Below, in pieces: positions 13,788-39,631 of a DNA stretch of 64,000 bases; positions within the stretch are counted from its first letter, which is position 1; each line of letters opens with the position of its first letter. The position numbers and the translations under genes were made by a program. Origin of the DNA: Pseudomonas sp. JM0905a. Its GTDB lineage: Bacteria; Pseudomonadota; Gammaproteobacteria; Pseudomonadales; Pseudomonadaceae. The notes under the pieces were generated by a model. The model saw only the letters and a list, made by a program, of their open reading frames with translations, was not told the origin of the DNA and did no database searches. The stretch lies in contig NZ_JACXBU010000004.1 of the NCBI RefSeq assembly GCF_014700075.1, positions 310,001-374,000 on the forward strand. Reading direction: 5' to 3'.

Positions 13788-14137
13788 GTGGTCGCCCCCT
13801 GTTAGTCCGTTAACGATGCCGGCGGGTGGATCGGTGCCGGGATTCATCCCTGGTTTATGGCGGCGTGTTCGCTTCGATAGCGGCCACCCTGCTTGTTTCT
13901 GGATCTGCCATTACACTGCCTGTGTTTGGACTTTGCTGCGCCTGTCGTGCTCGCGTAGCAGCATGCTACTCGAACGGCTACAGGCGGACCGTTCGCTACG
14001 CTCCTAAGTCCACCGGGCTATCACTTTCTGGTGCGTCTTGGCGCCTGTTGACGGATCGCCAGCACGCTGGCTTCTACACAGCTTGCTGCTCGACAGCGCA
14101 GCGCCGAAGACGGGGACGCCTGGTTATATGCCGACTC
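13788..14137. other. Gap between wzz (first copy) and the MBL pseudogene
   Basis: 350 bases without a supported gene. It contains small palindromes such as GTAGCAGCATGCTAC near 13953 and no coding frame that looks real on either strand. Confidence 0.4.
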
Positions 14138-17787: not shown

Positions 17788-20700
17788 CTATACCGCGAGG
17801 GTGAAATCTGTTTGGGTGATGGTAGTGGCATCCGCCACGCCCACCAGGGTGATGCTGTTGGCGCCGATGGTGACCCGGGTGTCCGCCCCGACATCGGTGA
17901 TCGCCACGTTCGCCGCGAAGGTGGCTGCGGTGATGCCCAACGAGGCGATGTTCAGCAGGTCCTGGCCGCCGCCCGGGTTGGCATCGAAGCCCTGGATGCG
18001 GTCCTGGCCAAAGCCCACCCCAAAGACAAAGGTATCGTTGCCCAATCCGCCAATCAGGGTGTCATTGCCAGCACCACCGGTGAGACGGTCATTACCAGCA
18101 CCACCCTGGACAGTGTTATCGAGGCCGTTACCCGTACCAGTGAAGTTGCCGTTGCCACCAAAGAACAGGTTCTCGACATTGACACCCAAGGTGTAACTGG
18201 CCAACGAGGTCCACACGGTATCAACGCCTTGTCCAGTAAGCTCAGCCACTACATCGCCGGCGTTAGTAACTGCATACGTATCGTCAGCTGCGCCGCCAGA
18301 CATGCTGTCGTTTCCAGTACCACCAATCAGAATGTCATTACCAACACCACCAATAAGTGCATCGTTACCCGCAGCACCATTGAGACGGTCATTCCCCGCA
18401 CCTCCCTGGACGGTGTTATTGAGACCGTTCCCCGTGCCAGTGAAGTCGCCACTGCCGCCGTACAACAGGTTTTCCACATTGGCGCCCAGGGTGTAGCTGG
18501 CCAGCGAGGTCCAGACGCTGTCCGTGCCCTGCCCGGCCTGTTCCACCACTCGGTCACCGGTATCGGTTACCGCGTAGATATCATTACCCAGCCGGCCTCG
18601 CATCGTGTCGTTACCGGCGCCGCCGATCAGGGTGTCATTCCCCGCACCACCCTGGAGGGTGTTATTGAGACCGTTACCCGTGCCAGTGAAGTTGCCACTA
18701 CCGCCATACAACAGGTTTTCCACATTGGCGCCCAGGGTGTAACTGGCCAGTGAAGTCCACACACTGTCCGTGCCCTCCCCAGCCAGCTCAACCACGCTGT
18801 CGCCAGCATCGGTCACTGCATAAGTATCGTTGCCGAGCCCACCCGCCATCGCGTCATTTCCGACACCACCATTGAGCACGTCATCCCCCGCCCCGCCATC
18901 GAGCGTGTCGTTGCCGTCCCCACCGTTGAGCTGGTCATTGCCCAGGTCGCCGAACAGTGTGTCGTTGCCAGCCAGGCCGTTGAGGATGTCGTCGCCGCCA
19001 CCACCATTGGCCACATCGTCGCCCGCCGTGCCGGTGAAGGTCTCACCCGCCAGGCCGCCGATGAACGCCACACCTACCGCTGCGGTCACCGCCGAGTTCA
19101 CCGTGTTGCTGAAACCGCCGTCATCGACATAGGTGGTCACCACCCGCAGGAAGCGGCCCGCCAGGGTCGCATCCGGGGTGAAGATGGCCGTGGTGGCGCC
19201 AGCGATATTGGCGAAGTCCACCCCGTTGAGCGACGACTGCCACTGGAAGCTGAACACCGAAGTCGTCGTGCCATCGGCATCGGCGATGGTGCCGCGCGTG
19301 GCAGTCAGGGCCTGCCCCACCAGCGGCGTGGTATCGCTGATCAGCGGCGCACCGGTCGGCGCATCGTTTGACGGAGTCCCCGAAACCAGCGCCGTGCCAG
19401 CCGAGTAGACGGTCTCCAGCACACCATTGCGGTCCCTGTAGATGGCCTTCAGACGCAGCGACTGGCCTGCCAGGTCGGCGGTGACCCGGAAGGTCGGACC
19501 TGCCGCCACATCAGCGTCGCCACCAGCATTCAGCGTCTCGATATCGACGAACACGCCGTCGCCATCATCTACCTGCCAGTAGTAGGCCACCGGCCCGGTG
19601 ATGGTGCCGCCGGCATTGTCGGCATCGGTCACGCCGGCAATGGAGGCCCGCAGCAGGGTACCGACTTCTGGAGTCGCATCATTGATTGTCGCCAGCCCGC
19701 TTGGTCCGTTGTTCAGGCCGGGAACCGCCGGCAGGGCCTGGTCAGCGAACTGCAGGCGCTCGATGCCGGTCAGGCGGTCGATGCCATCGCGGCCATCCAC
19801 CGTGTCGGTCACGGTAATGATGTCATCCGAGAAGTCCAGCGTGGTGCCTCGGTTGTCGATGCTGACCTGGTATTCGTCGAAGTTGCCGGTGAACACTGCG
19901 GTGTCGTAGTTGAAGCCGGTGCCATTGACGAGTTCGCGGACAATGACCATCTGCCCCGGATTCACCAGGCCGGACAGAGCCGCCGACGCCAGGGTCAGGT
20001 TGGCCGCAGTACCTGCCAATGCCCCGGATTTGTTGGTGATCACGCCGGTGAGGCTGCTGGCGGTACCGATCTCGACACCTGCTCCGTCACGGATGCTGAT
20101 GCGCGCATTCAGCGACTTGTCGCCATCGATCAGGTCGTCGCCACCACCGCCGATGAGCAGGTCACTGCCATTGCCACCGAGGATGATGTTGCCAGCCGCG
20201 AACGAGGTCACCCCGGCGCCGAGGAACTCCTGCATCCCGGAGATCAGCGCGATGTTGGTCAGCGCGCTGCCGGTGGCTCCACCGTGAGTGGCCATGATTA
20301 CGGCATCGGCGTCGTCGCCGCGCAGCATATCGCTGAACCTGGAACCGGACAGGCCTTCGGTGGACTCGAAGCGCGACAGCACCGACGCCACGGACGGCGC
20401 GATGGGCGCTTCGTTGAAGGCGCGCAGGCGCATGTCGACGTTGACGCCCGCCGGGTCGTCGCGGAACACCGCCCAGTCGAAGCCCGACATCCCGACATAG
20501 CGGTCACCTTCCCCGCCATTGCCCATCATGATGTCGTCACCGCCTTCACCATCCATCCGGTCGATGATCCCGAACTCGCCGTAGAAGACGTCGTGGCCGA
20601 TGATCGGGTCGCTGGCGAAGGGGTCGAAGTTGTCGCCCGCGGCGCCGTCGGCCATGCCGTGCTGGATCCAGTCGTCACCTTCATTGCCGAAGCTGAACTC

Positions 20701-23700
20701 ATTGGCACGGCCGGCCAGGATGAAGTCGTTACCGACACCACCGAAGAATTCCGACTCGTCCTCGAGTTTGATCATGAAGTCGTTGCCGAACCCGCCGATA
20801 ATCAGGTCCACGCCGTTGCCACTGTGGAGGACGTCGTTGCCCTCGCCGCCCTGGATGTTATCGTCGCCGCCCCGGTCGGTAATGATGTCGTCGCCGGCAC
20901 CACCGAACAGGAAGTCATTGCCGTCGCCACCTTCCAGTCGGTCGTTGCCGGCGTCGCCGTGCAGGGTGTCGTCACCGATGCTGGAAATCAGCCTGTCGTT
21001 GCCGGCAGTGCCGCCCAGCACAACGTGGTCCTCGCCGCGATAGACCAGCAGGCCGTCCCCGCGGCCGACCAGCGGCAGCAAGGGGTTGGTCCCGGTCGGA
21101 TCATCGCGACCGGTGAGACCGAGGCCGGTGTGCTGCGCAGCCTGGTTCACCTCGAGGGTGAAGGCCGGGGTCGAGAAGATATCCCCCGGCAGGTGCAACG
21201 CGTCGGTATTGGCCATCACCAGCTTGGCGAACGAGTTGTTCTCCAGCTCAGTGAGGAAGTTCAGGCCGGCGGTTCGTTCCAGGTAGTAGAAGCGGTCGCC
21301 GTCCTGGAGTTTCTCCATCTGGTTCTCGAACACGAAGTTGAAGGTCGAACCCAGCAGGCCGCCGAAGGGCATCTGCCGCTCGGCCAGGCCGCCGATCCAC
21401 AGGTCGATGTCATTCACCCCAGTAGTGGCTGCCGGCCCGTTGAGGAAGGCCAGACGGTCCGCCGGAGCGCCATCTCCACCGAATACCAGAAGCACGGCGG
21501 CGGCGCGCTTGTCCGCCATGGTCGTGGCGCCGGTGATGCTGGCGTGGGTGCCATAGGCGGCAATGAAGTTCACCACCGACTCCTGGTGCTTCAGGTTCGT
21601 CGCGAAGTCGAGCCAGCTCGTATAGGGCTTGAGCTGGGTATCGCCGGTTGCGTTGAAGAACTCCTGGCGCGCCATGTTCAGGGTGGGAACGCCGGTGTCA
21701 CGACCGCGGGCCAGATTGATGCTCGGCAAGTCCAACGGCAAACCCAGCAGGTTGTTGCGCAGGGCCTCGGTGACGAACTCGTCAATCTCGTTGCCCTGTT
21801 GCCGGGTCATGCCGCGGACTATGGCGCCTGCCGCCTGGTCGGCGGACACCTGGACCGTGCCTCCCGCGCCATCGCTCAACGAATTGAACGCAAGCGGGTT
21901 GAGGAAGGCGGTGATCAGACCCATGGAGCTGTCATTGGCGAAGGTCGGATCGAAGCGGTCCACGGTTTCGGTCAGCATCGAGTGGCCGAAGCGGTAAACG
22001 ACGTGGGCGAACTCGGCGACTATGGCCGGGTTGATGTTCGTGTCGTAGACCTGGGTCGGCGCGAAGAACACGTCCACCTGCGGCTGCACCTTGCGCGCGA
22101 ACTCCTCGAACACCAGGTGCTGGTACTGCATTTCAGTGGTGAAGCGCGCGGCCTGGAACAGCCGCTCACCATCCCAGACACCGGGTGACAGCTGCCACTC
22201 GGCGATGAAGTTCGCGTCATTGCTGGCCAGCACGACTGCCTTGATGTGCTCGACCATGCGGTTGTGCTCCGCGTGGAACACGTGGTGCACCGCGGTCAGG
22301 CCGATGTTCTCGTTGCCACGGCCATCGCCGGTAATGAAGTGCTCGTTGAGCAGCTCATCATCGTAGAACCCCACTGGAGGCGGCGAGTTCGGCGCGTTGA
22401 CGGCGCCGTCCGTGTCCGCCTGCAGCGCCTGGTTCGGCGTGTTCGGGTTGCCATCATGGTCGCCGAACGGATTGGCCGAATGCGCGATGTCATCGAGGAA
22501 GGCGTGCCCGGTACGACCGGCCAGCGATGCGTCGATGGGCGCGGCGGGCGTGCCGGATTGCAGGCCGCCGGCCGTGACGATCTGTGCGAACCCGGTGTCC
22601 GGATCGGGGATGAACTTGCCATAGGCATCCGTCGCCAGCAGCGGGAGGTTGAGCAGATCCTGGTCGTCCAGTTGGATGCCCAGCATGGCCTGGGCCTGCG
22701 CCTTGACGTCAGCCCAGGTGGGCAGGCCGCCGGACGAGCCGTCGGGGTTGGTGCCGTCCAGCATGCGCCCAGTGGCGACCGGCCGACCGTTGGCATCCAG
22801 CACGTATTCGCGCAGGAACACCTGGTGCGACGGGTGCGAGGTGTAGGTCTGGTTCTGGTCGACGAAGGGCGTGGTCTGGTTCACATGGACATGGATGTCG
22901 TCCGAAGTACCAAGCTGCCCGTCAGTACCGGCCTGCACCGCCGTGGTGGAAGCACGGGTCATGACCATGAAGGCGTTCTGCGGCAACACCTCGTCACCGT
23001 TGCCGGCAATGCCGTCGCGTCCGTGGGTGATCAGCGGGTCGTCAGGCTGCAGCGGAATGAACACCAGGCCGTTACCGCCCTTGCTCACCAGGTCCAGGCC
23101 ATGGTCGAAGAACTGGCCGAACAGGGTGAACCAGGAGTTGAAGCCCGCCGACAACCCCTCGTCCGGCGCGGTATTGGGGATGAACAGCGGCTGGCCGCGC
23201 GGAATCTCGATGCCATTGCCATCGAGGATCCTCGGCGTGCCATCGGCGTTGAACAACGGGACACCCGCGGCATCGACTACCCGTGTGCCAAGCCCGCCAT
23301 CGAGGAAGGCCTGCACGGCTGCCGGGTTGGTGATGGTCTGGTCGGCCACCAGGTTGCTGATGGTGCGCGGGTCGCTGTCCACCACGCTGCCGCCTGGACC
23401 GGACGTGGCGTAGTTGGTGTTGTTGACGCCAGCGAAGGGAGCCTCGTCGTTTTCATTACGGAAGAACTGATCCAGCAAGTTCGGGAACGGCTGGTCGGCC
23501 GCGCCGAAGTCCTCCTGCCCCGGAACCAGGTTGTTGAAGCTGCCATCCACCGTCCGCAGGCCAAATGCGCCACGGGTGTTCGGCAGGATGTCCAGCAGGC
23601 TTTCGCCGGCAGCATGGCGTTCGGAAATCTTGATCTGGTCGAGGATGAACTGCAGGTCCCCACGGATCAGATGTACACCGCCATTGATGGGCTCGGTCGG

Positions 23701-26700
23701 GCTTTCGACCGGAATTGCCGCTGGCGTGGTCGGCACCACCACGCCCGCCACATTAGCGGTCGGTGCGGAGAACGCGGTTTCCAGGACGCCGTCATCGTCC
23801 TGATAGATCGCCTTCACGCGGATCGCCAGGCCGTCCTGTTCGGCAGTGACGCGGAAGGTGCCGCGGGCGGCTGTCGACGGTACGTCGCCACCTTCGGTGA
23901 CGATGTCCTGGAAGATGCCTGAGCCAGCGAGTGTCTCGACCTGCCAGATGAAGGTGATCGGCCGACCGTTGAGGGTGCCGCCATCGATGTCGGCGTCGGT
24001 GACTCCGGCCACCGAGGCTCTCAGCAATTGACCGATTGACGGCGTGTTGTCCACCTGGCCGCTGGTGGCATCAAGGATGCTCAGTTGGCCGGTGGGCAGG
24101 CTGTTGGCACCACTGAGGACCACCGTCTGATCGGCGAACTGCAACCGCTCGATGTTCAGCAGGGTGTCCGAGCCCTCGGTGCCGACGTTGTCGGTGACCG
24201 TGGTCACGCCACCCACCGTGGTGACGGTGTAGTTGGCCAGGTTGCCGCCGAATACCGCGGTATCGATGCTGTCATCGGTATCGAGGATCTCGCGGACGAT
24301 GCTCAGCTGGCTCGGGTTGATTTCGCCCGAGAGCATGCGCGGGATCAGTTCCTGGATGGAGAGCACGCTTGTCACGTTGGCGTTGCCGGTGACCTGTACC
24401 CGCACATTGAGCCAGCGGTCGCCGTCGATCAGGTCGTTGCCGCCGCGACCTTCGATGATGTCGCTGCCCGCACCGCCCAGCAGGATATTGCCGGCACTGA
24501 AGGACACAACGCCAGGCCCGAAGGCTTCGTCGAGCAGGGCCTGCAGTCCGTTGACCAGGGCGATGTTGGTCAGGGTGCTGCCGAGTTCACCATCGGTGGG
24601 AATGGTGGTGGCATCGGAGTGATCGCCCTTGAGGATGTCGCTGAAAGAGGAACCCGACAGCCCTTCGACTTCCGCGAAGCGGTCGAGCAGGCCAGCGTTG
24701 GAGGCAGGGACCGGTGGTTCCACCAGGTCGTTGACCATCAGGTCGACATTGACGCCGCGCGGATCGCCACGGTAGGTGGCCCAGTCCCAGCCGGACATGC
24801 CGTCGAAGTGGTCGGAACCTTCGGAGCCGACCATGATGTCGTCGCCGCCCTCGCCTATCACCTCGTCGAAGCCGCCGCCACCAACGAAGACGTCGTTACC
24901 CGGAACCTCATCGCGGGCGAACGGCGAGAAGTTGTCGCCGGGCGCACCGTCCTGGGTGCCGATCTCGATCCAGTCGTCGCCTTCGTTACCCGCAGTCTGC
25001 AGGTTGCCTTTGGCGCCATAGATGAAGTCGTTACCGGTACCGCCGAAGGTTTCCGAAACGTCTTCGCCAGTGATGATGAAGTCGCTGCCGCCTCCGCCGA
25101 GGATCAGGTTGAAGCCGTTGCCGGCCTGGATGACGTCGTTGCCCTCGCCACCCTTGATGTTATCGTCGCCGCCCAGGTCAGTGATGATGTCGTCGCCGGC
25201 ACCGCCATCGAGGTTATCGACGCCGTCGCCGCCTTCCAGGCGGTCATTGCCTAAATCACCCCAGAGGGTGTCGTCGCCGATGCTGGCAATCAGGATGTCG
25301 TCGCCGGCTGTGCCGCCGAGCACCACATGGTCTTCGCCGGTGTAGCGCAGGTAGTTGGTGTCCGGTCCGGCGGTGTCCGGGTTGTCGCGGACCACCAGGG
25401 CCAGCAGCGGATTGTCGCCCAGCGGGTCATCGCGGCCGGTGGCACCCAATCCGGTGTGCTGCGCCAGCTGATTGACTTCGAGAATCCATGCCGGCGTGGA
25501 GAAGATATCCGCCGGCAGCCGGGTGATATCGGTGTTCTCCATCACCATCTTGGCAAAGGAGTTGTTCTCCATCTCGGTGAGGAAATTCAGCCCCGCCAGG
25601 CGGCTCAGGTAGTAGAAGCGGTCGCCGTTCTGCAGCGCCTCCAGCTGGGTCTCGAAGACGAAGTTGAAAGTGGAGCCGAGCAGGCCGCCAAAGGGCATCT
25701 GCTTCTCGGCCAGGCCGCCGATCCAGAAGTCCACCAGGTTCAGGCCGGTTTCCACACCGAGCCAGGTGCCAGTACCGTTCAGGAATTCGAGACGATCCAC
25801 TGGAACGTTGGTCCCCGTGCCCAGGACGATTGCCATCGCCGCGGCGCGCTTGGCTTCCAGGGTCGTCGCCCCGGTGATCGTGGCGTGAGTGCCATAAGCG
25901 GCGATGAAGTTGATCAGGGACGTTTCATGCTTGAGGTTGCCCATGAAGTCGACCCAGCTGGTATAGGCCGCCAGCTGGCTGTCACCGGTCATCGCGTGGA
26001 ATTCACGACGGGCGTCATTCAACGAAGGGATACCGGTGTCGCGGCCACGGGCGATGTTGATGGTGGCCAGGTCGAGCGGCAGGCCGAGCAGGTTGTTGCG
26101 CAGGGCTTCGGTCACGAACTCGTCGATCTCGTTGCCTTCCTGGCGGGTGGTGCCGCGAATGATGGCCCCGGCCGCCGCTTCCGGCGTCGCACCGCTGCTG
26201 GCGAACGCCAGCGGATTGAGGAAAGCAGTGATCAGGCCGATCTCGCTGCTGGCGAAATTCGGGTCGAGACGATCAATGGTCTCGGTCAGCATGGAGTGAC
26301 CGAAGCGATACACGGTGTGGGCGAACTCGGCAACGATGGCCGGGTTGATGGTGGCGTCGAAGCCATTGGGCGCCAGGAACGCGTCAACGGCGGGCTGCAC
26401 CTTGCGGGCGAACTCTTCGAACACCAGGTGCTGATACTGCATCTCGGTTCCAAACTTCGCAGCCTGGAACAGACGCTCGCCGTTCCAGTTCAACCCGTCC
26501 GGGGTCGCCGGCACGGCACCCACCGGAGTCAGCAACCACTGGTTGAGGAAGGCCAGGTCGCCGGAGGCCAGGATCACTTCCTTGGTGTGCTCGACCAGGC
26601 GATTGTGCTCGGCGTGGAACACATGGTGAACGGCGGTCAGGCCGATGTTTTCGTTGGCGCGGCCATCGCCGGCGATGTAGTGGGCGTCCAGCAGTTCGTC

Positions 26701-27972
26701 GTCATAGGAGCCCAGCGCGGGAGGCGGGCCTCCGGCGACATCATCTGCGTCGGCGACGAGCAACTGGTTCAGAGTAGCCGGATTACCGTCATGGTCGCCA
26801 AAGGGGTTGGCGGCGTGGGCGATGTCATCCAGGAAGGCATGGCCGGTACGGATCGCACCCACCAGGCTGATGGGGGCCGCCGGGTTGCCCTCGACCAGCA
26901 CATTGCCGGGGAAGACCACTTGCGGGAATCCGTTCGGGCCCTTGATGAAATTGCCGTAGGCATCGGTGGCCAGCAGCGGAACGCTGCCCACGTCGGCGTC
27001 GGTCAGGTCGATGCCGAGGATGTCGCGAGCCTGGGCCTTGACCACCGCCCAGGTGGCCATGCCGCCTATTTCGACGTCATCTGCGGTACCGAAGGTGCCG
27101 TCGGCGCCCAGGTCACGGTTGGTAATCAGCCGGCCGGTAGAGACCGGGTCACCATTGGCGTTCAGCTCGTAGGCACGCAGGAACACCTGATGGGACGGGT
27201 GCGAGCTGTAGGTCTGGTTCTGGTCGACGAAGGGCGAGGTGGTGTTCTGGGTTTCCTGGGTGTCGTCGGCCGTACCGACAACACCGTCGGCGCCAGGGCC
27301 GGCGAACTGGGTGGCGCGGGTCAGGACCAGGAAGTTGGTCGGGCTGCCCTGGACGAACAGCGGGTCGTCCTCCTGCAGCGGGATGAAGACAACCTCGTTG
27401 CCTCCCTTGGTCACGAGGTCCAGACCATGGTCGAAGAACTGGCCGAAGAAGGTGAACCAAGTGTTGAAGGGCGCGGAGAGGCCTTCGTCCGGGGTGGTAT
27501 TGGGCAGGAACAGCGACTGGCCAGCAGGAATGGGAACCCCGGCGAGGTCGAGCAGCGTGCCAATCGGAAATGGAACACCGGCGGGATCCAGCTGGGTGCC
27601 ATCGGCCAGCACGCCGAAGCCAGCATCGACGAAGGTCTGCACCGCCGCCGGGTTGCTGATGGTCTGGTCGACGATCAGGTTGCTGATGGTCCGCGGCTGG
27701 GAGTCGATTACCGTACCGCTGCCCAAATAGGAGGTGCCTTCTTCTGCCGGACGGAATACCGGTTCCAGCATACGCGGGAAGAGTTCGTCAGCAGCGCCGA
27801 CGGTTTCCTGTCCGCTCAATAGGTGATTGAAGGATCCGTCCAATGTACGCAGGCCCCAAGGCACCTGCGAGTTGGGTACAAGCGCCGACAGATCCTCGCC
27901 GGCCGCGTGGGCCTCGGCGATGAGGATCTGCTGGAGAATGAACTCGAGGTCAGACAGGATGAAATTGGCCAT
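17788..27972 (-). CDS. Giant secreted protein: two animal-type heme peroxidase modules plus RTX repeats (copy 1)
   Basis: 3394 residues. There is no N-terminal signal peptide; it begins MANFILSDLEFILQQILIAE. The first peroxidase module carries the distal histidine in FFGQFFDHGLDL (His182), the EHNR motif near 455, and the proximal histidine in VYRFGHSML (His559). It is followed by aspartate/glycine-rich RTX nonapeptides near 885-1000. A second complete module starts again at about residue 1415 (HLIRGDLQFILDQIKI) with the same motifs, then a second RTX block, an Ig-like segment, and a C-terminal RTX domain with three YAVT-VWTSLASYTLG-NVENL repeats. The end has the form of a type I secretion signal. 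Known relatives are the bacterial peroxicins of the peroxidase-cyclooxygenase superfamily. Ribosome site GAGGT lies before ATG 27972. No type I exporter is in this window. Confidence 0.9.
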   Translation of the reverse strand: MANFILSDLEFILQQILIAEAHAAGEDLSALVPNSQVPWGLRTLDGSFNHLLSGQETVGAADELFPRMLEPVFRPAEEGTSYLGSGTVIDSQPRTISNLIVDQTISNPAAVQTFVDAGFGVLADGTQLDPAGVPFPIGTLLDLAGVPIPAGQSLFLPNTTPDEGLSAPFNTWFTFFGQFFDHGLDLVTKGGNEVVFIPLQEDDPLFVQGSPTNFLVLTRATQFAGPGADGVVGTADDTQETQNTTSPFVDQNQTYSSHPSHQVFLRAYELNANGDPVSTGRLITNRDLGADGTFGTADDVEIGGMATWAVVKAQARDILGIDLTDADVGSVPLLATDAYGNFIKGPNGFPQVVFPGNVLVEGNPAAPISLVGAIRTGHAFLDDIAHAANPFGDHDGNPATLNQLLVADADDVAGGPPPALGSYDDELLDAHYIAGDGRANENIGLTAVHHVFHAEHNRLVEHTKEVILASGDLAFLNQWLLTPVGAVPATPDGLNWNGERLFQAAKFGTEMQYQHLVFEEFARKVQPAVDAFLAPNGFDATINPAIVAEFAHTVYRFGHSMLTETIDRLDPNFASSEIGLITAFLNPLAFASSGATPEAAAGAIIRGTTRQEGNEIDEFVTEALRNNLLGLPLDLATINIARGRDTGIPSLNDARREFHAMTGDSQLAAYTSWVDFMGNLKHETSLINFIAAYGTHATITGATTLEAKRAAAMAIVLGTGTNVPVDRLEFLNGTGTWLGVETGLNLVDFWIGGLAEKQMPFGGLLGSTFNFVFETQLEALQNGDRFYYLSRLAGLNFLTEMENNSFAKMVMENTDITRLPADIFSTPAWILEVNQLAQHTGLGATGRDDPLGDNPLLALVVRDNPDTAGPDTNYLRYTGEDHVVLGGTAGDDILIASIGDDTLWGDLGNDRLEGGDGVDNLDGGAGDDIITDLGGDDNIKGGEGNDVIQAGNGFNLILGGGGSDFIITGEDVSETFGGTGNDFIYGAKGNLQTAGNEGDDWIEIGTQDGAPGDNFSPFARDEVPGNDVFVGGGGFDEVIGEGGDDIMVGSEGSDHFDGMSGWDWATYRGDPRGVNVDLMVNDLVEPPVPASNAGLLDRFAEVEGLSGSSFSDILKGDHSDATTIPTDGELGSTLTNIALVNGLQALLDEAFGPGVVSFSAGNILLGGAGSDIIEGRGGNDLIDGDRWLNVRVQVTGNANVTSVLSIQELIPRMLSGEINPSQLSIVREILDTDDSIDTAVFGGNLANYTVTTVGGVTTVTDNVGTEGSDTLLNIERLQFADQTVVLSGANSLPTGQLSILDATSGQVDNTPSIGQLLRASVAGVTDADIDGGTLNGRPITFIWQVETLAGSGIFQDIVTEGGDVPSTAARGTFRVTAEQDGLAIRVKAIYQDDDGVLETAFSAPTANVAGVVVPTTPAAIPVESPTEPINGGVHLIRGDLQFILDQIKISERHAAGESLLDILPNTRGAFGLRTVDGSFNNLVPGQEDFGAADQPFPNLLDQFFRNENDEAPFAGVNNTNYATSGPGGSVVDSDPRTISNLVADQTITNPAAVQAFLDGGLGTRVVDAAGVPLFNADGTPRILDGNGIEIPRGQPLFIPNTAPDEGLSAGFNSWFTLFGQFFDHGLDLVSKGGNGLVFIPLQPDDPLITHGRDGIAGNGDEVLPQNAFMVMTRASTTAVQAGTDGQLGTSDDIHVHVNQTTPFVDQNQTYTSHPSHQVFLREYVLDANGRPVATGRMLDGTNPDGSSGGLPTWADVKAQAQAMLGIQLDDQDLLNLPLLATDAYGKFIPDPDTGFAQIVTAGGLQSGTPAAPIDASLAGRTGHAFLDDIAHSANPFGDHDGNPNTPNQALQADTDGAVNAPNSPPPVGFYDDELLNEHFITGDGRGNENIGLTAVHHVFHAEHNRMVEHIKAVVLASNDANFIAEWQLSPGVWDGERLFQAARFTTEMQYQHLVFEEFARKVQPQVDVFFAPTQVYDTNINPAIVAEFAHVVYRFGHSMLTETVDRFDPTFANDSSMGLITAFLNPLAFNSLSDGAGGTVQVSADQAAGAIVRGMTRQQGNEIDEFVTEALRNNLLGLPLDLPSINLARGRDTGVPTLNMARQEFFNATGDTQLKPYTSWLDFATNLKHQESVVNFIAAYGTHASITGATTMADKRAAAVLLVFGGDGAPADRLAFLNGPAATTGVNDIDLWIGGLAERQMPFGGLLGSTFNFVFENQMEKLQDGDRFYYLERTAGLNFLTELENNSFAKLVMANTDALHLPGDIFSTPAFTLEVNQAAQHTGLGLTGRDDPTGTNPLLPLVGRGDGLLVYRGEDHVVLGGTAGNDRLISSIGDDTLHGDAGNDRLEGGDGNDFLFGGAGDDIITDRGGDDNIQGGEGNDVLHSGNGVDLIIGGFGNDFMIKLEDESEFFGGVGNDFILAGRANEFSFGNEGDDWIQHGMADGAAGDNFDPFASDPIIGHDVFYGEFGIIDRMDGEGGDDIMMGNGGEGDRYVGMSGFDWAVFRDDPAGVNVDMRLRAFNEAPIAPSVASVLSRFESTEGLSGSRFSDMLRGDDADAVIMATHGGATGSALTNIALISGMQEFLGAGVTSFAAGNIILGGNGSDLLIGGGGDDLIDGDKSLNARISIRDGAGVEIGTASSLTGVITNKSGALAGTAANLTLASAALSGLVNPGQMVIVRELVNGTGFNYDTAVFTGNFDEYQVSIDNRGTTLDFSDDIITVTDTVDGRDGIDRLTGIERLQFADQALPAVPGLNNGPSGLATINDATPEVGTLLRASIAGVTDADNAGGTITGPVAYYWQVDDGDGVFVDIETLNAGGDADVAAGPTFRVTADLAGQSLRLKAIYRDRNGVLETVYSAGTALVSGTPSNDAPTGAPLISDTTPLVGQALTATRGTIADADGTTTSVFSFQWQSSLNGVDFANIAGATTAIFTPDATLAGRFLRVVTTYVDDGGFSNTVNSAVTAAVGVAFIGGLAGETFTGTAGDDVANGGGGDDILNGLAGNDTLFGDLGNDQLNGGDGNDTLDGGAGDDVLNGGVGNDAMAGGLGNDTYAVTDAGDSVVELAGEGTDSVWTSLASYTLGANVENLLYGGSGNFTGTGNGLNNTLQGGAGNDTLIGGAGNDTMRGRLGNDIYAVTDTGDRVVEQAGQGTDSVWTSLASYTLGANVENLLYGGSGDFTGTGNGLNNTVQGGAGNDRLNGAAGNDALIGGVGNDILIGGTGNDSMSGGAADDTYAVTNAGDVVAELTGQGVDTVWTSLASYTLGVNVENLFFGGNGNFTGTGNGLDNTVQGGAGNDRLTGGAGNDTLIGGLGNDTFVFGVGFGQDRIQGFDANPGGGQDLLNIASLGITAATFAANVAITDVGADTRVTIGANSITLVGVADATTITQTDFTLAV
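17814..19365. repeat. Near-identical 1.55-kb C-terminal segment, copy A
   Basis: This stretch matches 28813-30364 at a constant offset of 10,999 bases. By eye I find one base difference (near 18691, giving GGSGNF here and GGRGNF in the other copy). It covers the Ig-like NDAPTGAPLISD segment and the whole C-terminal RTX domain. Identity stops abruptly on both sides: the last few codons differ, and upstream of 19366 the proteins are much more diverged. Confidence 0.93.
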
Positions 27973-28142
27973 GTTGTTTACCTCAATCCGACAGCAATAA
28001 GTCAGGCCGAATCGCGCCCGCGCGGGTGCGATTCCACGTTTCGTCGAAGGAAAGCGATCAAGCCGGGCAAATCGCAGTCGCGGCCGAACCCGCCAAGCCT
28101 TGGAAGTGGCTCAGTTCCGACTGAATGGATTTGTCCCTGTCA

Positions 28143-28164
28143 GCGCCGCCGCAGAAGGCGGCGC
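28143..28164 (-). promoter_or_regulatory. Hairpin just after the leader ORF of giant peroxidase copy 1
   Basis: A perfect 8-bp stem (GCGCCGCC / GGCGGCGC) with a 6-base loop, starting 7 bases after the small ORF stop and followed by about 170 bases before the giant ORF. There is no T-run, so it is not an obvious terminator; it may affect RNA stability or translation. Confidence 0.5.
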
Positions 28165-28170
28165 GCCAGT

Positions 28171-28239
28171 TCAGGCGTGAGGTGGTCCATGGAAGCGGAC
28201 GCGGGGGGCGGCAGAGGGCGAGACTGAATCGATGCTCAT
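28171..28239 (-). CDS. Putative 22-residue leader peptide ending FHGPP-H-A
   Basis: A small ORF starting MSIDSVSPS and ending RVRFHGPPHA. It has a good ribosome site (AGGGAG, 9 bases before ATG 28239). It stands 97 bases downstream of the promoter -10 box and 198 bases upstream of the giant peroxidase ATG. A matching ORF ending FHGPP-G-R stands at the same place before the second giant gene, with the same AGGGAGAAC ribosome site. Conserved position, ribosome site and C-terminus in two otherwise diverged leaders suggest it is translated. Function unknown: it could control the downstream gene or be a small protein in its own right. Confidence 0.55.
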   Translation of the reverse strand: MSIDSVSPSAAPRVRFHGPPHA

Positions 28240-28335
28240 TGCGGTGTTCTCCCTAGCACTCTTGTGGCCGACTCCGCAGGTGCGTCCCTCAACGCCACTG
28301 CGTGCCAAAAAACAGTCATGCTCGTACACACCCTG

Positions 28336-28364
28336 ACTAAAGCCCCCGTCCCAGACACTGTCAA
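28336..28364 (-). promoter_or_regulatory. Sigma70-type promoter of giant peroxidase copy 1
   Basis: TTGACA (28364-28359) and TTTAGT (28341-28336) with a 17-base spacer. The same TTGACAGTGT and CTTTAGTCAGG blocks occur at the same distance before the second giant gene, while the spacer between them differs, as expected for a functional promoter. Confidence 0.75.
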
Positions 28365-28789: not shown

Positions 28790-31700
28790 TCAGCTGACGA
28801 TGAAGTCTGCCTGGGTGATGGTAGTGGCATCCGCCACGCCCACCAGGGTGATGCTGTTGGCGCCGATGGTGACCCGGGTGTCCGCCCCGACATCGGTGAT
28901 CGCCACGTTCGCCGCGAAGGTGGCTGCGGTGATGCCCAACGAGGCGATGTTCAGCAGGTCCTGGCCGCCGCCCGGGTTGGCATCGAAGCCCTGGATGCGG
29001 TCCTGGCCAAAGCCCACCCCAAAGACAAAGGTATCGTTGCCCAATCCGCCAATCAGGGTGTCATTGCCAGCACCACCGGTGAGACGGTCATTACCAGCAC
29101 CACCCTGGACAGTGTTATCGAGGCCGTTACCCGTACCAGTGAAGTTGCCGTTGCCACCAAAGAACAGGTTCTCGACATTGACACCCAAGGTGTAACTGGC
29201 CAACGAGGTCCACACGGTATCAACGCCTTGTCCAGTAAGCTCAGCCACTACATCGCCGGCGTTAGTAACTGCATACGTATCGTCAGCTGCGCCGCCAGAC
29301 ATGCTGTCGTTTCCAGTACCACCAATCAGAATGTCATTACCAACACCACCAATAAGTGCATCGTTACCCGCAGCACCATTGAGACGGTCATTCCCCGCAC
29401 CTCCCTGGACGGTGTTATTGAGACCGTTCCCCGTGCCAGTGAAGTCGCCACTGCCGCCGTACAACAGGTTTTCCACATTGGCGCCCAGGGTGTAGCTGGC
29501 CAGCGAGGTCCAGACGCTGTCCGTGCCCTGCCCGGCCTGTTCCACCACTCGGTCACCGGTATCGGTTACCGCGTAGATATCATTACCCAGCCGGCCTCGC
29601 ATCGTGTCGTTACCGGCGCCGCCGATCAGGGTGTCATTCCCCGCACCACCCTGGAGGGTGTTATTGAGACCGTTACCCGTGCCAGTGAAGTTGCCCCTAC
29701 CGCCATACAACAGGTTTTCCACATTGGCGCCCAGGGTGTAACTGGCCAGTGAAGTCCACACACTGTCCGTGCCCTCCCCAGCCAGCTCAACCACGCTGTC
29801 GCCAGCATCGGTCACTGCATAAGTATCGTTGCCGAGCCCACCCGCCATCGCGTCATTTCCGACACCACCATTGAGCACGTCATCCCCCGCCCCGCCATCG
29901 AGCGTGTCGTTGCCGTCCCCACCGTTGAGCTGGTCATTGCCCAGGTCGCCGAACAGTGTGTCGTTGCCAGCCAGGCCGTTGAGGATGTCGTCGCCGCCAC
30001 CACCATTGGCCACATCGTCGCCCGCCGTGCCGGTGAAGGTCTCACCCGCCAGGCCGCCGATGAACGCCACACCTACCGCTGCGGTCACCGCCGAGTTCAC
30101 CGTGTTGCTGAAACCGCCGTCATCGACATAGGTGGTCACCACCCGCAGGAAGCGGCCCGCCAGGGTCGCATCCGGGGTGAAGATGGCCGTGGTGGCGCCA
30201 GCGATATTGGCGAAGTCCACCCCGTTGAGCGACGACTGCCACTGGAAGCTGAACACCGAAGTCGTCGTGCCATCGGCATCGGCGATGGTGCCGCGCGTGG
30301 CAGTCAGGGCCTGCCCCACCAGCGGCGTGGTATCGCTGATCAGCGGCGCACCGGTCGGCGCATCATTGACCGCAGTAGCCGCGACCACATCCGTCACATT
30401 CGACAGCACGGTCTCCAGTACACCATTGGCGTCCTTGTAGATGGCCATCACCCGCAAGGCCAGGCCGGCCAGGTCCGCGGTGACGCGGAAGCTGCGGCCC
30501 GTGGCGCGGGAGACCTCTCCGGCGGCGACGAAGGTGATGTCGTCGAAGATGCCGCTGCCCGGGTTGGTTTCCACCTGCCAGTAGTAGGACACCGCTCCGG
30601 TGATGGTGCCGCCGGCATTGTCGGCATCGGTCACGCCAGCCAGGGAAGCGGTGAGCAGCGTACCGACTTCAGGTGTGGCATCGCTGATACTCACTGCGCC
30701 TACCGGGCGTGCATCGGTGCCGGACAGGTCGATGACGCCGTCGGCGAACTGCAGACGTTCGATGCTGTTCAGGTGGTCGGTGCCGTCACGACCTGCCACC
30801 TGGTCGGTCACGGTGACCGTGCCATCGGCATTGACCACGAAGTCGTACTCCGACGACAGGCCACGGTAAGCCGCCGTATCCAGCGCAGCGGTGCCTTGCA
30901 GGATCTCCCGTACGATCACCAGTTGCCCGGCGTGATAGGTACCGTTGACCATCAGCGGCACCATCTCGGTCATGTTGTTGAAGCTGGCGATCTCCGCACC
31001 GCTGCCATCGAGGTTGGCCCGCACGCTGATGCGTACGTTCAGCCATCTGTCGCCATCGATCAGGTCATCGCCACCCCGTCCCATGATGATGTCGCTGCCG
31101 CTGCCGCCGAGCATGATGTTGCCGCCGTCGAAGAAGGCCACGGACGGCACGGCCACGGTACCGAGCATCTGGTTGAGGAAGCCCTGGAGCCCGGAGATCA
31201 GCGCAATGTTGGTCAGCACGCTGCCCTTGGCGCCGGCCACCGGCAACGAAGCGGCATCGGAATCGTCACCGCTGAGCACGTCGCCGAAAGCCGAACCCGA
31301 CAGGCCTTCGACGAAGTCGAAGCGGGTCAGCACCGAGGCGCTCGAACCCGGCATCTGCGGCTGATCGAAGAAGCGGTCGCTGATGTCGATGGTGACGCCG
31401 CGGGTATCGTTCTTGAAGGTCGCCCAGTCGTAACCGGAGGAACCGATGTAACGGTCACCCTGGCCAGCGCTGCCGACCATGATGTCGTCACCACCCTCGG
31501 CGTTGAACTTATCGTTCTCGCCGCTGCCGATGTAGACGTCGTTGCCGGCGATCGGGTCGTTGCCAGCCGGATCGAAGTTGTCGCCGGGGGCGCCGTCCGA
31601 GGTACCGGCTTCCAGCCAGTCATCACCCTCGTTGCCCATGTCCTGCTCGTTGGCTTTCGAGCCCAGGATGAAGTCGTTGCCCTGGCCGCCGAAGGCTTCA

Positions 31701-34700
31701 CTGGCGTCTTCACCGGTAATGATGAAGTCGTTGCCGAAGCCGCCGAGGATCAGGTTGACGCCGTTGCCACCCTGGATCACGTCGTTGCCGTTGTCACCCT
31801 TGATGTTGTCGTCGCCACCCACGTCCGTGATGATGTCGTCGCCGTCGCCACCATTGATGAAGTCATTGCCGTAGCCGCCGTCCAGACGGTCATCTCCGCC
31901 GTCGCCGTAGAGGGTGTCGTCGCCCTCGCTGGAACGCAGGATGTCGTTGCCGGCACTGCCGCCCAGCACCACGTGCTCGGCACCGCGATACAGCAGGTAG
32001 TTGGTGTCCGTCCCCGGGGTCGCCGGGTTGTCGCGGCTCACCTCTGGCAACAGCGGGTTGTCGCCCAGCGGGTCGGAGTTGCCAGCGATGCCGTCGGCAC
32101 CAACCACGTCATCTGCCGTGCCCTGGATGCCATCCGCGCCGGCATCGTTGAGGCCGGTGTGCTGCACCAGCGGATTGACTTCCAGGGTGAAGGCGGGGGT
32201 CAGGAAGACCACGCCCGGCAAGTGGGTGGCATGGGTGTTGGCCATGATCAGCTTGGCGAACGAGTTGCCTTCCAGCTCAGCGTTGAAGTTCAGGCCGGCG
32301 GTCCGTTCCAGGTAGTAGAAGCGGTCGCCGTCCTGGAGTTTCTCCAGCTGGTTCTCGAACACGAAGTTGAAGGTCGAGCCCAGCATGCCACCGAACGGCG
32401 TGACCTTCTCGGCCAGGCCACCGATCCAGAAGTCCACCAGGTTGAGACCGGTTTCCACGCCGGTCCATGCACCAGTGCCATTGAGGAAGTCCAGCCGGTC
32501 GGCAGGCGCGGTTGCCCCGCCCAGGACGATGGCGGTCGCGGCGGCACGTTTGTCGGCCAGCAGGGTGGCAGCGGTGATGGTGTCGTGGGTGCCGTAGGCC
32601 GCGATGAAGTTGATCAGCGACTCCGGATGCTTCAGGTGCATCACCATGTCGGCCCAGCTCACGTAGGGCTTCAGGTTGGAATCGCCGGTGGCTTCATAGA
32701 ACGAGGCCCGGGCGTGGTTGAGGCTCGGCACGCCGGTGTCGCGGCCACGGGCGATGTTCAGCGCCGCCAGGTCCAGCGGCAGGCCCACCAGGTTGTTGCG
32801 CAGCGCCTCGGTGACGAACTCGTCGATCTGGTTGCCCACGGTACGGGTCACGCCACGCACGATGGCACTGGTAGCGTCCTCCGGGGTCACACCGCTCGCG
32901 GCATAGGCCAGCGGGTTGAGGAAGGCGGCGATCAGGCCCAGTTGCTGGTCGTTGGTCGGGTGCAGCGGGTCAGCGACTATCGGGTTGAAGTTGGCGTCGA
33001 AGCGATCGACCGTCTCGGTCAGCATCGAGTGGCCAAAACGGTAAACCGTGTGGGCGAACTCGGCGACGATCGACGGATCGAGGTTGACGTCATAGACCTG
33101 GGTCGGCGCGAAGAACGGGTCGACGTTGGGCTGGATGGTCCGCGCGAACTCTTCGAACACCAGGTGCTGGTACTGCATTTCAGTACCGAACTTGGCGGTC
33201 TGGAACAGACGCTCGCCATTCCACTGCAAGGCATTGATCTCGGCCGCGGTGGTCGGGAAGGCCGCCGGAGCCGTACCCGGCAGCAGCCACTCGGCGAGAA
33301 ACGCCAGGTCGTTGCTGGCCAGCACGGTGGACTTCGTCTGTGCCACCAGGCGGTTGTGCTCGGAGTGGAAGATCGCGTGGACGGAGGTCAGGCCGATGTT
33401 CTCGTTGACCCGGCCGTCACCGGCCATGTAGTGCGCGTCCAGCAGCTCGTTGTCGTAGGTTCCCGCTGCCGGCGGAGTACCCACGTTGACGATGTTGTCG
33501 GCGTCGGCGGTCAGGCCGCCGGTGGGATCGGCGCTGTGGGCGATGTCGATGAGGAACTGGTGACCGGTGCTCACCGCGCCGGTCAGGCTGATCCCCACAC
33601 CGCCGTTGGCGGTCGGGTCACCTTCGATGAGCACATCGTCAGCGGTACCCGGCAGGCCGTCAGGACCGACGAAGACCACCATCGGGAAGCCGTTCGGCCC
33701 CTTGATGAAGTTGCCGTAGTCGTCGGTGGCCAGCAGCGGCACATCGAACACATTGGCATCGGTCAGGTTGATCCCGAGGATGTCACGGGCCTGGGCCTTG
33801 ACCACTGCCCAGGTCGCCATGCCACCAATTTCCACGTCGTCGGCTGTACCGAACTCGCCATCGGCACCCAGGTTGCGGTTGGTGATCAGCTCACCGGTCG
33901 CCTTGGGCCCAGTCGGGGTGGAAATGTACTCACGCAGGAATACCTGGTGCGACGGGTGCGAGCTGTAGGTCTGGTTCTGGTCGACGAAGGGCGAGGTGGT
34001 GTTCTCGTTCTGCCCCGGTACGCCACCCACCTGGGTAGCGCGGGTGAGGACCATGAAGTTGGTCGGGCTGCCCGCGACGAAACGCGGATCATCCGGCTGC
34101 AGCGGAATGAACACGGTGCCGCTGCCACCCTTGGTCACCAGGTCCAGGCCGTGGTCGAAGAACTGCCCGAAGAAGGTCATCCAGGCGTTGAACGGCGCGG
34201 TCAGGCCGGCATCCGGCATGGTGTTGGCGATGAAGTTCACCTGCTGGTCATCGGCGGTGCCGAACAGACCGTCCAGGCCGGGACTGGTCACGACCAGGTT
34301 GCCGTCCTTCAACACATCGTCGGCCGTACCGAGAATGCCGTCCACGCCAGGATCGAAGGTCGACGCCACCGCAGCCGGGTTGTTGGCGGTCTGGTCGACG
34401 ATCAGGTTGCTGATGGTGCGCGGGTCACTGTCCACCACGCTGGTGGAGCTGTTGTAGTTGGTGTTGGTGATGCCGTTGAAGGCGACCTCATCGTTCTCGT
34501 TGGTGAATTCAGGCGGCAACAGGCGCGGGAAGGTGTTGTCGGCTGCACCGAACTGGCTCTGGTCGATACCGGAGAAGTTCAGCAGGTTGTTGAACTCACC
34601 GGTGACGGTGCGCAGGCCCATGGAGGCGCGCACGTTCGGCAGCAGGGACAGCAGGTCCACACCGGACGCATGTGCTTCAGCGATGCGGATCTGATCGAGG

Positions 34701-37700
34701 ATGAAGTTCAGGTCCCCGCGCACCAGCTGGATGCCGGGGCCGCTCTGGGCAACGCCCGGCCCCACATCGACCACCGGAGTGGGCGGCGGCGGGGTGAAGG
34801 CGGCCACAGCAGCGGAAGGCGCGGAGAACACCTGTTCGGTGACGCCGCCGGCATCCTGGTAGACGCCCTTGACCCGGAGCGACAGGCCCGCGAGGTCCGG
34901 AGTGATCCTGAAGCGGATGCCGTTGGCGCTCTGGAAGGCCAGGTCGCCCGCCGGTGCGGCAATGATGTCCTCGAAGACGCCGCTGCCCGGAACACGCTCG
35001 ACCTGCCAAACGTAGTTGACGTCGGTGATGCCGCCGCCAGGGTTGTCACCGTCGTTGACGCCGGCCGCGGAGACGGTGAGGAAATCACCGACCTGCAGGG
35101 CACCGCCGTTTGTATCGGTGATGGTCAGCAGTCCCGTCGGCTCCGCATTGAGGCCGGCGACCAGCACCTGCCTGCCGTCGGAGAACTGGATGCGCTCGAC
35201 GTTGGTCAGGCGATCGATACCGTCACGCCCAGCCACCGAGTCGGTCACGGTGACGGAGCCGTCGGCATTGGTTACCACCGTGTAATCGGCAGCGCGCCCC
35301 CGGTAGTTGGCGGTGTCGAAGCCGGCACCGCTATCGAGCAGTTCACGCACCGCCACCAGCTGACCGGGGTTGAAGGTGTGGTTCAGCATCAGGGGGATCA
35401 GGTCCACCATGCTGTCGAAGGTGGCGATTTCCGCACCGGTGCCGTCGGCATTGGCACGTACGCTGATGCGCACGTTCAGCATGAGATCGCCATCGATCAG
35501 GTCGTTACCGCCGCGACCTTCCATGATGTCGCTGCCGCCACCGCCGAGGATAATGTTGCCGCCGACGAAGGTGTCCACCAGGTCGTCCGCGGTGCCGAGG
35601 ATGGCGTCCGCACCCACCGCGGCCTGGTCACCGACGAAGGCCCGCAGGCCGGTGATCAGGTCGAGGTTGGTCAGGGCGCCGCCGGTGGCACCGCCATGGT
35701 TGATGATGGTGGTCGGGTCCACGTCGTCGCCGCGCAGGATGTCGGCGAAGGCGGAACCGGACAGGCCTTCCACCTCGGCGAAGCGGTCGAAGATCGACGC
35801 CGGCGACTGTGCCACCGGGAAGGCGATGTGGTCGCCCACTTCACCGATGCCGAGGAAGGCCGCCAGGGCCAGGTCGACGGTGACGCCGATGTTGTCGTTC
35901 TTGTAGGTGACCCAGTCATAGCCGGACATGCCGTCCATCTTGTCCTGGGCATCGCTGCCCACGAAGATGTCGTCGCCGCCCTCCCCGATCATTTCGTCGA
36001 AGCCGCCGCCGCCGATGAAGATGTCGTGACCGATCACGTTGTCAGCCAGCAGGGGCGCGAAGTTGTCGCCAGGCGCACCGTCCTGGGTACCCCACTCGAT
36101 CCAGTCGTTACCCTCGTTGCCGGTGGGCGGCAGGCTGGTCTTGGCGCTGTAGATGAAGTCGTCGCCCTGGCCGCCGAAGGTGGTGGACATGTCTTCGATG
36201 GTGACGATGAAGTCCTTGCCGTTGCCGCCGAGGATCAGGTTGCCGGCGCCGCCGGCCATCATGTTGCCGACTTCGATCACGTCGTTGCCGTCGCCACCTT
36301 CCATGCGGTTGTCGCCGCCAGCGTCGGTGATGATGTCGTCACCAGCGCCACCCATGACGGTGTCGTTGCCATAGCCGCCTTCCAGCACGTCGTTGCCACC
36401 ATCGCCATAAAGGGTGTCGTCGCCATCGCCGGAAATGAGGGTGTCGTCGAGCGCGGTACCACCCAGCACCACGTGATCTTCACCGGTGTAGCGCAGGTAG
36501 TTGGTTTCCACCGCAGCCGTGTTGGGGTCGTCACGCATCACCAGCGGCGTGATGACCACGCCATTGATCATGATGCCGCCGGTGGGGTCGGAGTTTCCGG
36601 CGATGCCATCCGCGCCGACCACGTCGTCAGCGGTGCCCTGGATACCGTCCGCGCCGGCGTCGTTCAGGCCGGTGTGCTGCGCGGCCTGGTTGACCTCAAG
36701 GGTCCAGGTCGGGGTGGAGAAGATCGCGTTGGCCAGGTGAGTCGCATCGGTATTGAGCATCACCAGCTTGGCGAAGGAGTTGTTCTCCAGCTCGGTGCCG
36801 AAGTTCATCCCCGCGGTGCGCGACAGGTAATAGAAGCGGTCACCGTTCTGCAGGGACTCCAGCTGGGTCTCGAACACGAAGTTGAAGGTCGAGCCGAGCA
36901 TGCCGCCGAAGGGCATCTTCTCTTCGGCCAGGCCGCCGATCCAGAAGTCGACCAGGTCCAGGCCGGTGGTGGTCACGCCATCGGCACCGCTGGCCCAGGC
37001 ACCGGTGCTGTGCAGGAAGTCCATGCGGTCAGCCGGTTCGCCAGCGCCGCCCAGCACCAGCAGGGTCGCGGCGGTGCGCTTGGCCGCCAGGGTAGTGGCG
37101 CCAGTGATGCTGGCGTGGGTGCCGTAAGCGGCGATGAAGTTGATCAGCGATTCCGGGTGCTTCAGGTGATCGAGGAAGTCCACCCAGCTCGTGTAGGGGT
37201 TGAGCTGCTCGTCGCCGGTCATGTGGTAGAACTCGCGGCGAGCGGCGTTCAGCGAGGGAATGCCGGCGTCACGACCACGGGCGATGTTGATGGCTGCGAG
37301 GTCCAGCGGCAGGCCCACCAGGTTGTTGCGCAAGGCCTCGGTGACGAACTCGTCGATCTCATTGCCCACGGTGCGGGTCACGCCGCGCACGATGGCACCG
37401 GCGGCGGCTTCCGCCGTCGGGCCACTGGCGGCATAGGCCAGTGGGTTGAGGAAGGCGGCGATCAGGCCCAGCTGCTGGTCGTTGGTTGGGTGCAACGGGT
37501 CCGCCGTGATCGGGTTGAAGTTCGGGTCGAAGCGATCGATGGTCTCGGTCAGCATCGAGTGGCCGAAGCGGTAAACCGTGTGGGCGAACTCGGCGACGAT
37601 GGACGGATCGATGGTGGTGTCATAGCCGGACGGCGCCAGGAATTCGTCCACCTGCGGCTGGATGGTGCGGGCGAACTCCTCGAACACCAGGTGCTGATAC

Positions 37701-39217: not shown

Positions 39218-39418
39218 TTGCTGATTCCTCAATTCCGACTGCGTAAGGGCGTGCGCCATGGCAGCAAGGGCAGGGCTCCACGCTTTCGACTTGACTTCGG
39301 GATTTGGGGGACTAGATGACGCCTACCTTGAAGCGACGCTGGTGCTAGCGCGATTCACGCTCTTCAGCAGGAGGTTCTATCCCTGAAGGTGCCGGCAATG
39401 TCGTACCGACACCGGAGG

Positions 39419-39508
39419 TCATCTGCCTGGCGGACCGTGAAATTCGGAAAGATGTTGCGAGAGGGGCGAAAGCGCCCCCGGGAATGCGGTGTGCGAAACA
39501 GTGCTCAT
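39419..39508 (-). CDS. Putative 29-residue leader peptide ending FHGPP-G-R
   Basis: A small ORF starting MSTVSHTAFP and ending LSEFHGPPGR. Ribosome site AGGGAG lies 6 bases before ATG 39508. It stands 95 bases after the promoter -10 box and 201 bases before the giant ORF. The stop is followed at once by a compound hairpin (TGTCG-GTA-CGACA flanked by CCGG arms, about 39390-39415). Same arrangement as the small ORF at 28171-28239; the N-terminal halves are unlike, but M-S-x start, Ser/Pro/Ala-rich middle and FHGPP end are shared. Confidence 0.55.
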   Translation of the reverse strand: MSTVSHTAFPGALSPLSQHLSEFHGPPGR

Positions 39509-39602
39509 GACGTTCTCCCTAGCGTTAATTGTTTCTCGGCTAAGGCTGCAACGCCCTCACGATGCAGCTGTCCGCAATGCGAAACAATTTCTTACATACC
39601 TG

Positions 39603-39631
39603 ACTAAAGATTCGCCAAAAAACACTGTCAA
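39603..39631 (-). promoter_or_regulatory. Sigma70-type promoter of giant peroxidase copy 2
   Basis: TTGACA (39631-39626), 17-base spacer, TTTAGT (39608-39603). Shares the TTGACAGTGT and CTTTAGTCAGG blocks with the copy 1 promoter but not the middle of the spacer. Confidence 0.75.

Follow-up and report, generated by a model that had tools for sequence, protein, structure and literature searches.

A short upstream open reading frame (uORF) whose peptide carries the tetrapeptide HGPP near its C-terminus lies before each of two giant peroxidase genes in a 64,000-nt stretch of the genome of Pseudomonas sp. JM0905a (hereafter the window; contig NZ_JACXBU010000004.1, positions 310,001 to 374,000). 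On the basis of sequence comparison, we consider it likely that this uORF encodes a short arrest peptide of the HGPP type, through which a ribosome stalled in the leader controls the giant peroxidase gene in cis; expression of the 10-kb gene would then probably depend on that stalled ribosome. A cis-acting arrest leader is the best reading of the locus because HGPP belongs to the published RAPP/RGPP/HGPP arrest motifs; arrest itself would be expected from published tests of this motif class.

Two tandem giant peroxidase genes share a leader layout

The whole arrangement of uORFs and giant genes lies on the minus strand, in a host genome of the resinovorans group of Pseudomonas. In the open reading frames of the window, the giant genes stand in tandem, each about 10 kb long and encoding a protein of approximately 3,400–3,500 aa: giant gene 1 (17788..27972, minus strand; 3394 aa) and giant gene 2 (28790..39217, minus strand). 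Both encode two animal haem peroxidase domains (An_peroxidase matches with E values of 1.7e-122 and 6.5e-120) together with RTX repeats. The start of giant gene 2 was set at 39217 (MANF...), giving a gene shorter than that beginning at 39259 in the open-reading-frame list. The giant genes belong to the family that includes the manganese-oxidizing MopA; MopA/PepA giant peroxidases have two animal-peroxidase domains with calcium-binding repeats (PMC9765421, PMC3396595). From the placement of the genome with P. resinovorans relatives, rather than from an alignment, the tandem pair looks equivalent to mop7013/mop7014 of P. resinovorans MOB-513, two-domain peroxidase genes that are implicated in Mn(II) oxidation and whose expression both Mn(II) and c-di-GMP induce (PMC9765421).

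An earlier note on this DNA had described a small ORF before each giant gene, with a common promoter, ribosome site, and post-stop hairpin; the two small ORFs are real, and their coordinates hold. In the leader of giant gene 1 (all features on the minus strand), a TTGACA −35 box (28359..28364) and a TTTAGT −10-like box (28336..28341; not listed by a generic sigma-70 consensus scan) are followed by the Shine–Dalgarno sequence AGGGAGAAC (28246..28254) and the 22-codon uORF1 (28171..28239; peptide MSIDSVSPSAAPRVRFHGPPHA), in which the candidate arrest motif is encoded by CAT GGA CCA CCT (28180..28191). Beyond the stop codon lie an 8-bp hairpin (28143..28164; from folding and the group A alignment) and a second long hairpin, GGGACAAATC...GATTTGCCC (28065..28137), predicted by alifold from 14 orthologues (whole-leader z −3.6). 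The leader of giant gene 2, likewise on the minus strand, has its −35 box TTGACA at 39626..39631, its −10-like box TTTAGT at 39603..39608, the Shine–Dalgarno sequence AGGGAGAAC at 39512..39520, and the 29-codon uORF2 at 39419..39508 (peptide MSTVSHTAFPGALSPLSQHLSEFHGPPGR), with candidate motif codons CAC GGT CCG CCA at 39428..39439. Its post-stop hairpin has 10 bp (39388..39413; from folding, with compensatory changes among orthologues), and the second long hairpin, GGGATAGA...TCTAGTCCC, spans 39308..39383 (alifold, 14 orthologues; whole-leader z −2.75).

The promoter-like site TTGACA-17-TTTAGT is thus exact at both loci, the Shine–Dalgarno sequence is identical, and 198 and 201 nt separate the uORF stops from the giant start codons, as the earlier note had it, given the MANF start for giant gene 2. 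For the distance from the end of the −10 box to the uORF ATG, put there at 95–97 nt, we measured 96 nt (uORF1) and 94 nt (uORF2). The flanking DNA, said to have diverged, has done so between the two paralogues, but within orthologue groups the post-stop leader is strongly conserved: groups A and B are 84–85% identical over the part that starts some 60 nt beyond the uORF stop and reaches the giant gene. A degenerate FHGPP DNA pattern occurs at just two sites within the window, both of them the uORFs, against 0.03 expected; the Shine–Dalgarno sequence plus ATGAGC, taken as a conserved DNA pattern, gave no matches, the spacers of the two leaders differing by 3 nt. The uORF1 of the window is 8 codons shorter, in frame, than its nearest relatives.

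Several neighboring features were also observed. In group B leaders, the 5′ UTR contains a conserved potential stem (TTGTTTC...GAAACAA) just before the uORF Shine–Dalgarno sequence (window 39520–39600, minus strand). Directly upstream of giant gene 2 lies a gene for a sigma-54 activator-type AAA+ protein in which no receiver domain was matched (window 39959–41074, minus strand). Downstream of the peroxidase pair are Wzz-like and polysaccharide-synthesis genes (window 11463–17415, minus strand), an arrangement suggesting that an exopolysaccharide cluster adjoins the peroxidase genes.

The leader ORF recurs upstream of homologous giant genes

Homologues of the giant genes were gathered by protein N-terminus alone, ignoring the leader, from 14 of 18 genus genomes, genome contigs of named species, and 398 family genomes, yielding 104 distinct upstream regions. 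In a scripted test for an in-frame [HR][GDA]PP with a stop within about 12 codons and a start codon with a Shine–Dalgarno sequence, 79 of these 104 regions passed (HGPP 67, RGPP 7, HDPP 5), versus a mean of 0.22 and a maximum of 2 among dinucleotide shuffles of the same regions; the test gave no cases for other XGPP motifs. Four further regions (L044, L060, L080, and L121) contain the motif by eye and fail the start-codon or length rule. With these included, the ending FHGPP proposed in the earlier note stands as a conserved C-terminal motif upstream of the homologues (83/104), but its F is variable and the shared part is HGPP: the residue before H is mostly F, with L, Y, S, I, V, and others also present, and the C-terminal consensus is [H/R][G/D]PP. 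Two or seven residues follow the motif in 72 of the 79 scripted cases, the distance from stop to giant start ranges from 166 to 225 nt in that set, and uORF length is typically 22–41 codons (full span, 22 to 78 residues).

Leaders are also present before distant, shorter peroxidase genes of approximately 1,860–2,040 codons (L147, L148, L149, L151, and L153). No such uORF was found at the betaproteobacterial giant-peroxidase loci examined, nor before those giant peroxidase genes of other proteobacteria that have a placeable start, with the exception of one Aeromonas. In that case, Aeromonas eucrenophila (L066), the giant gene is preceded by a fluorescens-type HGPP leader, which suggests that gene and leader were transferred together. 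A class-level search of 369 genomes with the giant gene’s N-terminus gave a match in the window’s own genome alone. HGPP DNA matches with a downstream TGA in the same genome numbered 41, compared with 42 for a reversed-pattern control, and none of the 12 in-frame HGPP...TGA matches checked outside the window (TGA stops only) had a start codon with a Shine–Dalgarno sequence.

The motif is under purifying selection as a peptide

Judged by its pattern of substitutions, the motif is conserved as amino acids rather than as DNA. Across the 12 motif bases in 79 sequences, positions 1, 4, 7, 8, 10, and 11 never differ and the third position of each of the four codons is free, while positions 2 and 5 vary solely through the exchanges of H to R and G to D; His is encoded equally by CAC (36) and CAT (36), and all GGN and all CCN codons are used. 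In four clades, the ratio of nonsynonymous to synonymous changes (N/S) within the motif was 0–0.10 of neutral, versus 0.84–5.4 in the +1 frame control, these ratios being derived from pairs of related sequences whose counts are not independent. The check for purifying selection that the earlier note had proposed came out in favor of the leader, as the motif codons change almost only synonymously. Over the ten codons before the motif, N/S was 0.24–0.63 of neutral, indicating mild selection.

Beyond the motif, the peptide bodies of different clades share little, and only four residues are conserved throughout. The 79 homologues contain no conserved sensor motif in the peptide body besides the HGPP-type end; a CXXC/CXXXC metal site was found in none of the peptides of the scripted set, and no export signal is apparent by eye in the usual 22–41-aa peptides. 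One homologue (L121) provides a natural insertion experiment: a REP-like palindromic element of about 44 codons lies in frame inside the uORF, roughly 150–480 nt upstream of the giant gene, and the resulting 78-aa peptide keeps HGPP.

Mapped onto a quick tree built from 103 N-terminal segments, the motif is widespread and probably ancestral in Pseudomonas, with at fewest three changes on the tree for RGPP and three for HDPP. The earlier note had regarded related strains without the ORF as counting against a selected leader. Such strains exist in the P. putida clade, but on the tree this absence looks like a secondary loss inside a uORF-bearing clade. Here the uORF is gone, and both the TTGACA-17-TTTAGT promoter-like site and the giant gene are kept; the uORF is therefore not obligatory. 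Regions of this clade with TTGACA-17-TTTAGTC and no uORF are L082, L083, L089, L098, L110, L111, L124, and L128 (and L069). For PP_2561 of KT2440, a ColR site has been predicted directly upstream of this TTGACA (PMC2689224), and the gene is present in a c-di-GMP/FleQ expression table (PMC8125075). Decay of the motif is seen in the P. chengduensis group, whose leaders (L063, L065, L086, L122, and L158) carry HGS-x in place of HGPP, in the form HGSP in L065 and L158, within an otherwise recognizable GHF-DPQ-like peptide.

HGPP points to a known class of arrest peptides

Both RxPP and HGPP have been recovered from random libraries as stallers of the E. coli ribosome (PMC7897499, PMC10987492, PMC12992588), and HGPP occurs in natural uORFs that cluster with RAPP arrest peptides (PMC7897499, PMC10987492, PMC12992588, PMC10951233). 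Arrest by RAPP and RGPP is refractory to EF-P (PMC12992588), and arrest strength is tuned by residues upstream of the motif (PMC10951233). Context matters: most RAPP-like stretches tested from E. coli and B. subtilis proteins arrested inefficiently (PMC10987492). By analogy with these peptides, an arrest motif would tolerate the replacement of H by R that homologues show at its first residue, at the same place in the leader. The proposal of the earlier note that the shared parts are selected and that the leader may control the giant gene finds its first part in the selection on the motif, and the sequence evidence makes control in cis very probable. The statement made there that no leader peptide like this had been described is true of the family but not of the kind, HGPP being RAPP-like (PMC7897499, PMC12992588).

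Like ApdA/ApdP/ApcA and the RQH family, the peroxidase uORFs bear a C-terminal R/H-A/G-P-P a few residues before the stop (PMC7897499, PMC10987492, PMC10951233, PMC12992588), and like other RAPP-like arrest peptides they lie directly upstream of the putative regulated gene and have a variable N-terminal part. At the sequence level, they thus have the tetrapeptide near the C-terminus, the same-strand upstream ORF kept across relatives, and the amino-acid conservation that characterize the class. The RAPP-like peptides described so far as a rule possess an N-terminal signal or transmembrane segment and stand before secA, secDF, yidC, or other genes, whereas the giant-peroxidase peptides are usually 22–41 aa long with no export signal evident by eye, have HGPP as the main form, and precede an RTX enzyme. 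The lack of a signal by eye and the peroxidase/RTX gene downstream likewise separate them from the Sec/YidC monitors (SecM, ApdA, ApdP, and RQH). A 2025 survey of RAPP-like peptides counts RAPP and RGPP only, and peroxidases are absent from its main text.

Possible consequences of a ribosome stalled in the leader

For each of the clades tested, the leader between uORF stop and giant start scores as more structured than alignments with shuffled columns (alifold z: group A, −3.6; group B, −2.75; GHFFDPQ, −5.7; fluorescens-type, −5.4). Pairs changed on both sides number nine each in groups B and GHFFDPQ, several of them in the post-stop hairpin, and one in group A; the second leader hairpin begins with a GGGAYA-like sequence. 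Calculated from the ribosome footprint, a stall that placed the first Pro of the motif in the P site would, in the clades with two residues after the motif, put the edge of the ribosome near the stop codon, just before the hairpin. No known RNA family was recognized, as Rfam covariance models gave no match at gathering score over 13000–42000 and none at E 0.5 for leader 1.

In the mechanism that we propose, a ribosome would park at the HGPP end of the uORF and act in cis on the mRNA of the giant gene. The parked ribosome would cover a stretch rich in C and poor in G where the uORF ends, so that Rho would be kept from terminating in the structured leader of about 200 nt; were the arrest lifted or bypassed, the yield of full-length 10-kb message would fall. 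Control through Rho is favored because C exceeds G, in rut-like fashion, over the end of the uORF, an arrangement also found in the CruR leader. The value of C% minus G% over the uORF end is +12.2, versus +4.4 in giant genes and −2.0 far upstream, with C exceeding G in all clades, and the C>G maximum of the leader falls inside the uORF in 67 of 79 cases. Given an arrest leader in cis, we nevertheless put the chances of the Rho-termination step at slightly short of even, because the excess of C over G is of moderate size (84th percentile among segments of the giant genes, which are themselves C-rich) and arises in part from the motif’s own Pro codons (mean +5.6 where the segments end before the motif).

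The closest parallel is with the DUF2946 uORF CruR of Bordetella pertussis, in which a RAPP-stalled ribosome has been proposed to cover a rut site and thereby prevent Rho termination; CruR has in common with the peroxidase leaders a C-terminal motif of the arrest class, a uORF end at which C exceeds G (moderately so in the peroxidase leaders), a distance of about 160–200 nt to the gene, and a metal-related target (PMC9426467). CruR differs in its length of 145 aa, its CXXC copper site, and its predicted export; the CXXC/CXXXC of the CruR/CutF (DUF2946) copper leaders is absent from the listed giant-peroxidase peptides. TnaC is a leader of approximately 24 aa whose arrest blocks Rho termination, and SecM is a secreted protein of approximately 170 aa with a RAGP arrest motif. 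The uORF resembles TnaC in its short length and in the proposed link to Rho, and the RAGP of SecM is of the same chemistry class as HGPP; neither is homologous to the uORF, which has no Trp site.

Alternative explanations

SecM too acts by exposing a downstream ribosome-binding site, and a stalled ribosome could similarly refold the leader RNA and expose that of the giant gene. This would be in keeping with the conserved and structured leader (alifold z −2.8 to −5.7), with the compensatory changes of the post-stop hairpin in two clades, and with CutF of Rhodobacter capsulatus, which works in this way (PMC9973294). CutF resembles the peroxidase leaders in its Pro-rich C-terminus, its position before a secreted metal-oxidizing multicopper oxidase, and its intergenic stem-loop, but it is an exported copper-sensing protein whose stem-loop covers the cutO Shine–Dalgarno sequence, and comparable unmasking is not predicted for the giant peroxidases. 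In secondary-structure predictions of pseudoknot-free folds with the ribosome footprint treated as unpaired, masking the stall footprint raises the predicted accessibility of the giant Shine–Dalgarno sequence by over 0.1 in a single homologue out of 79 and lowers it by over 0.1 in five (mean, 0.41 to 0.40). Because the modeled footprint leaves accessibility unchanged, we do not favor unmasking and regard it as unlikely; the giant start, moreover, lies about 200 nt away behind separate hairpins.

Somewhat less likely again is a constitutive arrest near the 5′ end that senses nothing and shields the 10-kb message from degradation. The very long downstream ORF, the stable hairpins beside the putative stall site, and the lack of conserved sensor residues besides the motif all fit such a role, but the leader is found as well before homologues of only about 1,900–2,000 codons, and it is missing from P. 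putida-clade genes that are similarly large.

Under the preferred reading of an arrest leader controlling expression in cis, the nature of any signal can be addressed speculatively. The HGPP leader might conceivably be a nascent-peptide sensor that reads manganese or a related redox or metal cue in the exit tunnel and switches Rho termination before MopA-type Mn(II)-oxidizing peroxidases, thus explaining part of the Mn(II) induction of the mop genes in P. resinovorans (PMC9765421). We give this rather long odds; manganese is a lead, not a result, and the peptides are without CXXC.

That the small ORF makes a functional peptide acting in trans, such as the secretion or maturation partner suggested in the earlier note, is very improbable. 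Selection does act at the protein level, mildly also over the ten codons before the motif, but the clades share little in the peptide body except the four conserved residues, lengths run from 22 to 78, and the exchanges seen (H/R, G/D) lie within or near those of the arrest-motif class; furthermore, the ORF is always directly upstream in cis, with no other credible TGA-ending copy in the genome. Classical attenuation sensing His or Pro charging through codon content is more improbable still: the motif does hold one His and two Pro codons, but there is no run of control codons, conservation of Gly equals that of His and Pro, R can stand in for H, and no terminator/antiterminator pair is present. 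An attenuator with an intrinsic terminator was likewise set aside: neither leader contains a terminator with a convincing U-tract, and a single weak match near the giant start of leader 1 is within shuffle expectation.

Implications for giant peroxidases and arrest peptides

If the arrest-leader reading is true, giant MopA/PepA-type peroxidases, some of which have been linked to root colonization and to the oxidation of Mn(II) by bacteria, would be under nascent-peptide control, a layer of regulation for which we found no report in the literature on leader ORFs or post-transcriptional control of MopA/PepA or RTX/peroxidase genes. Gene callers, and hence proteome-based surveys, easily overlook ORFs of 22–30 codons. 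The natural series of HGPP, RGPP, HDPP, decayed HGS-x, and full loss offers material on how arrest motifs evolve. RAPP-type arrest control, described for export machinery and copper genes, would moreover extend to a giant RTX enzyme, through a peptide whose length probably does not suffice to reach beyond the ribosome tunnel.
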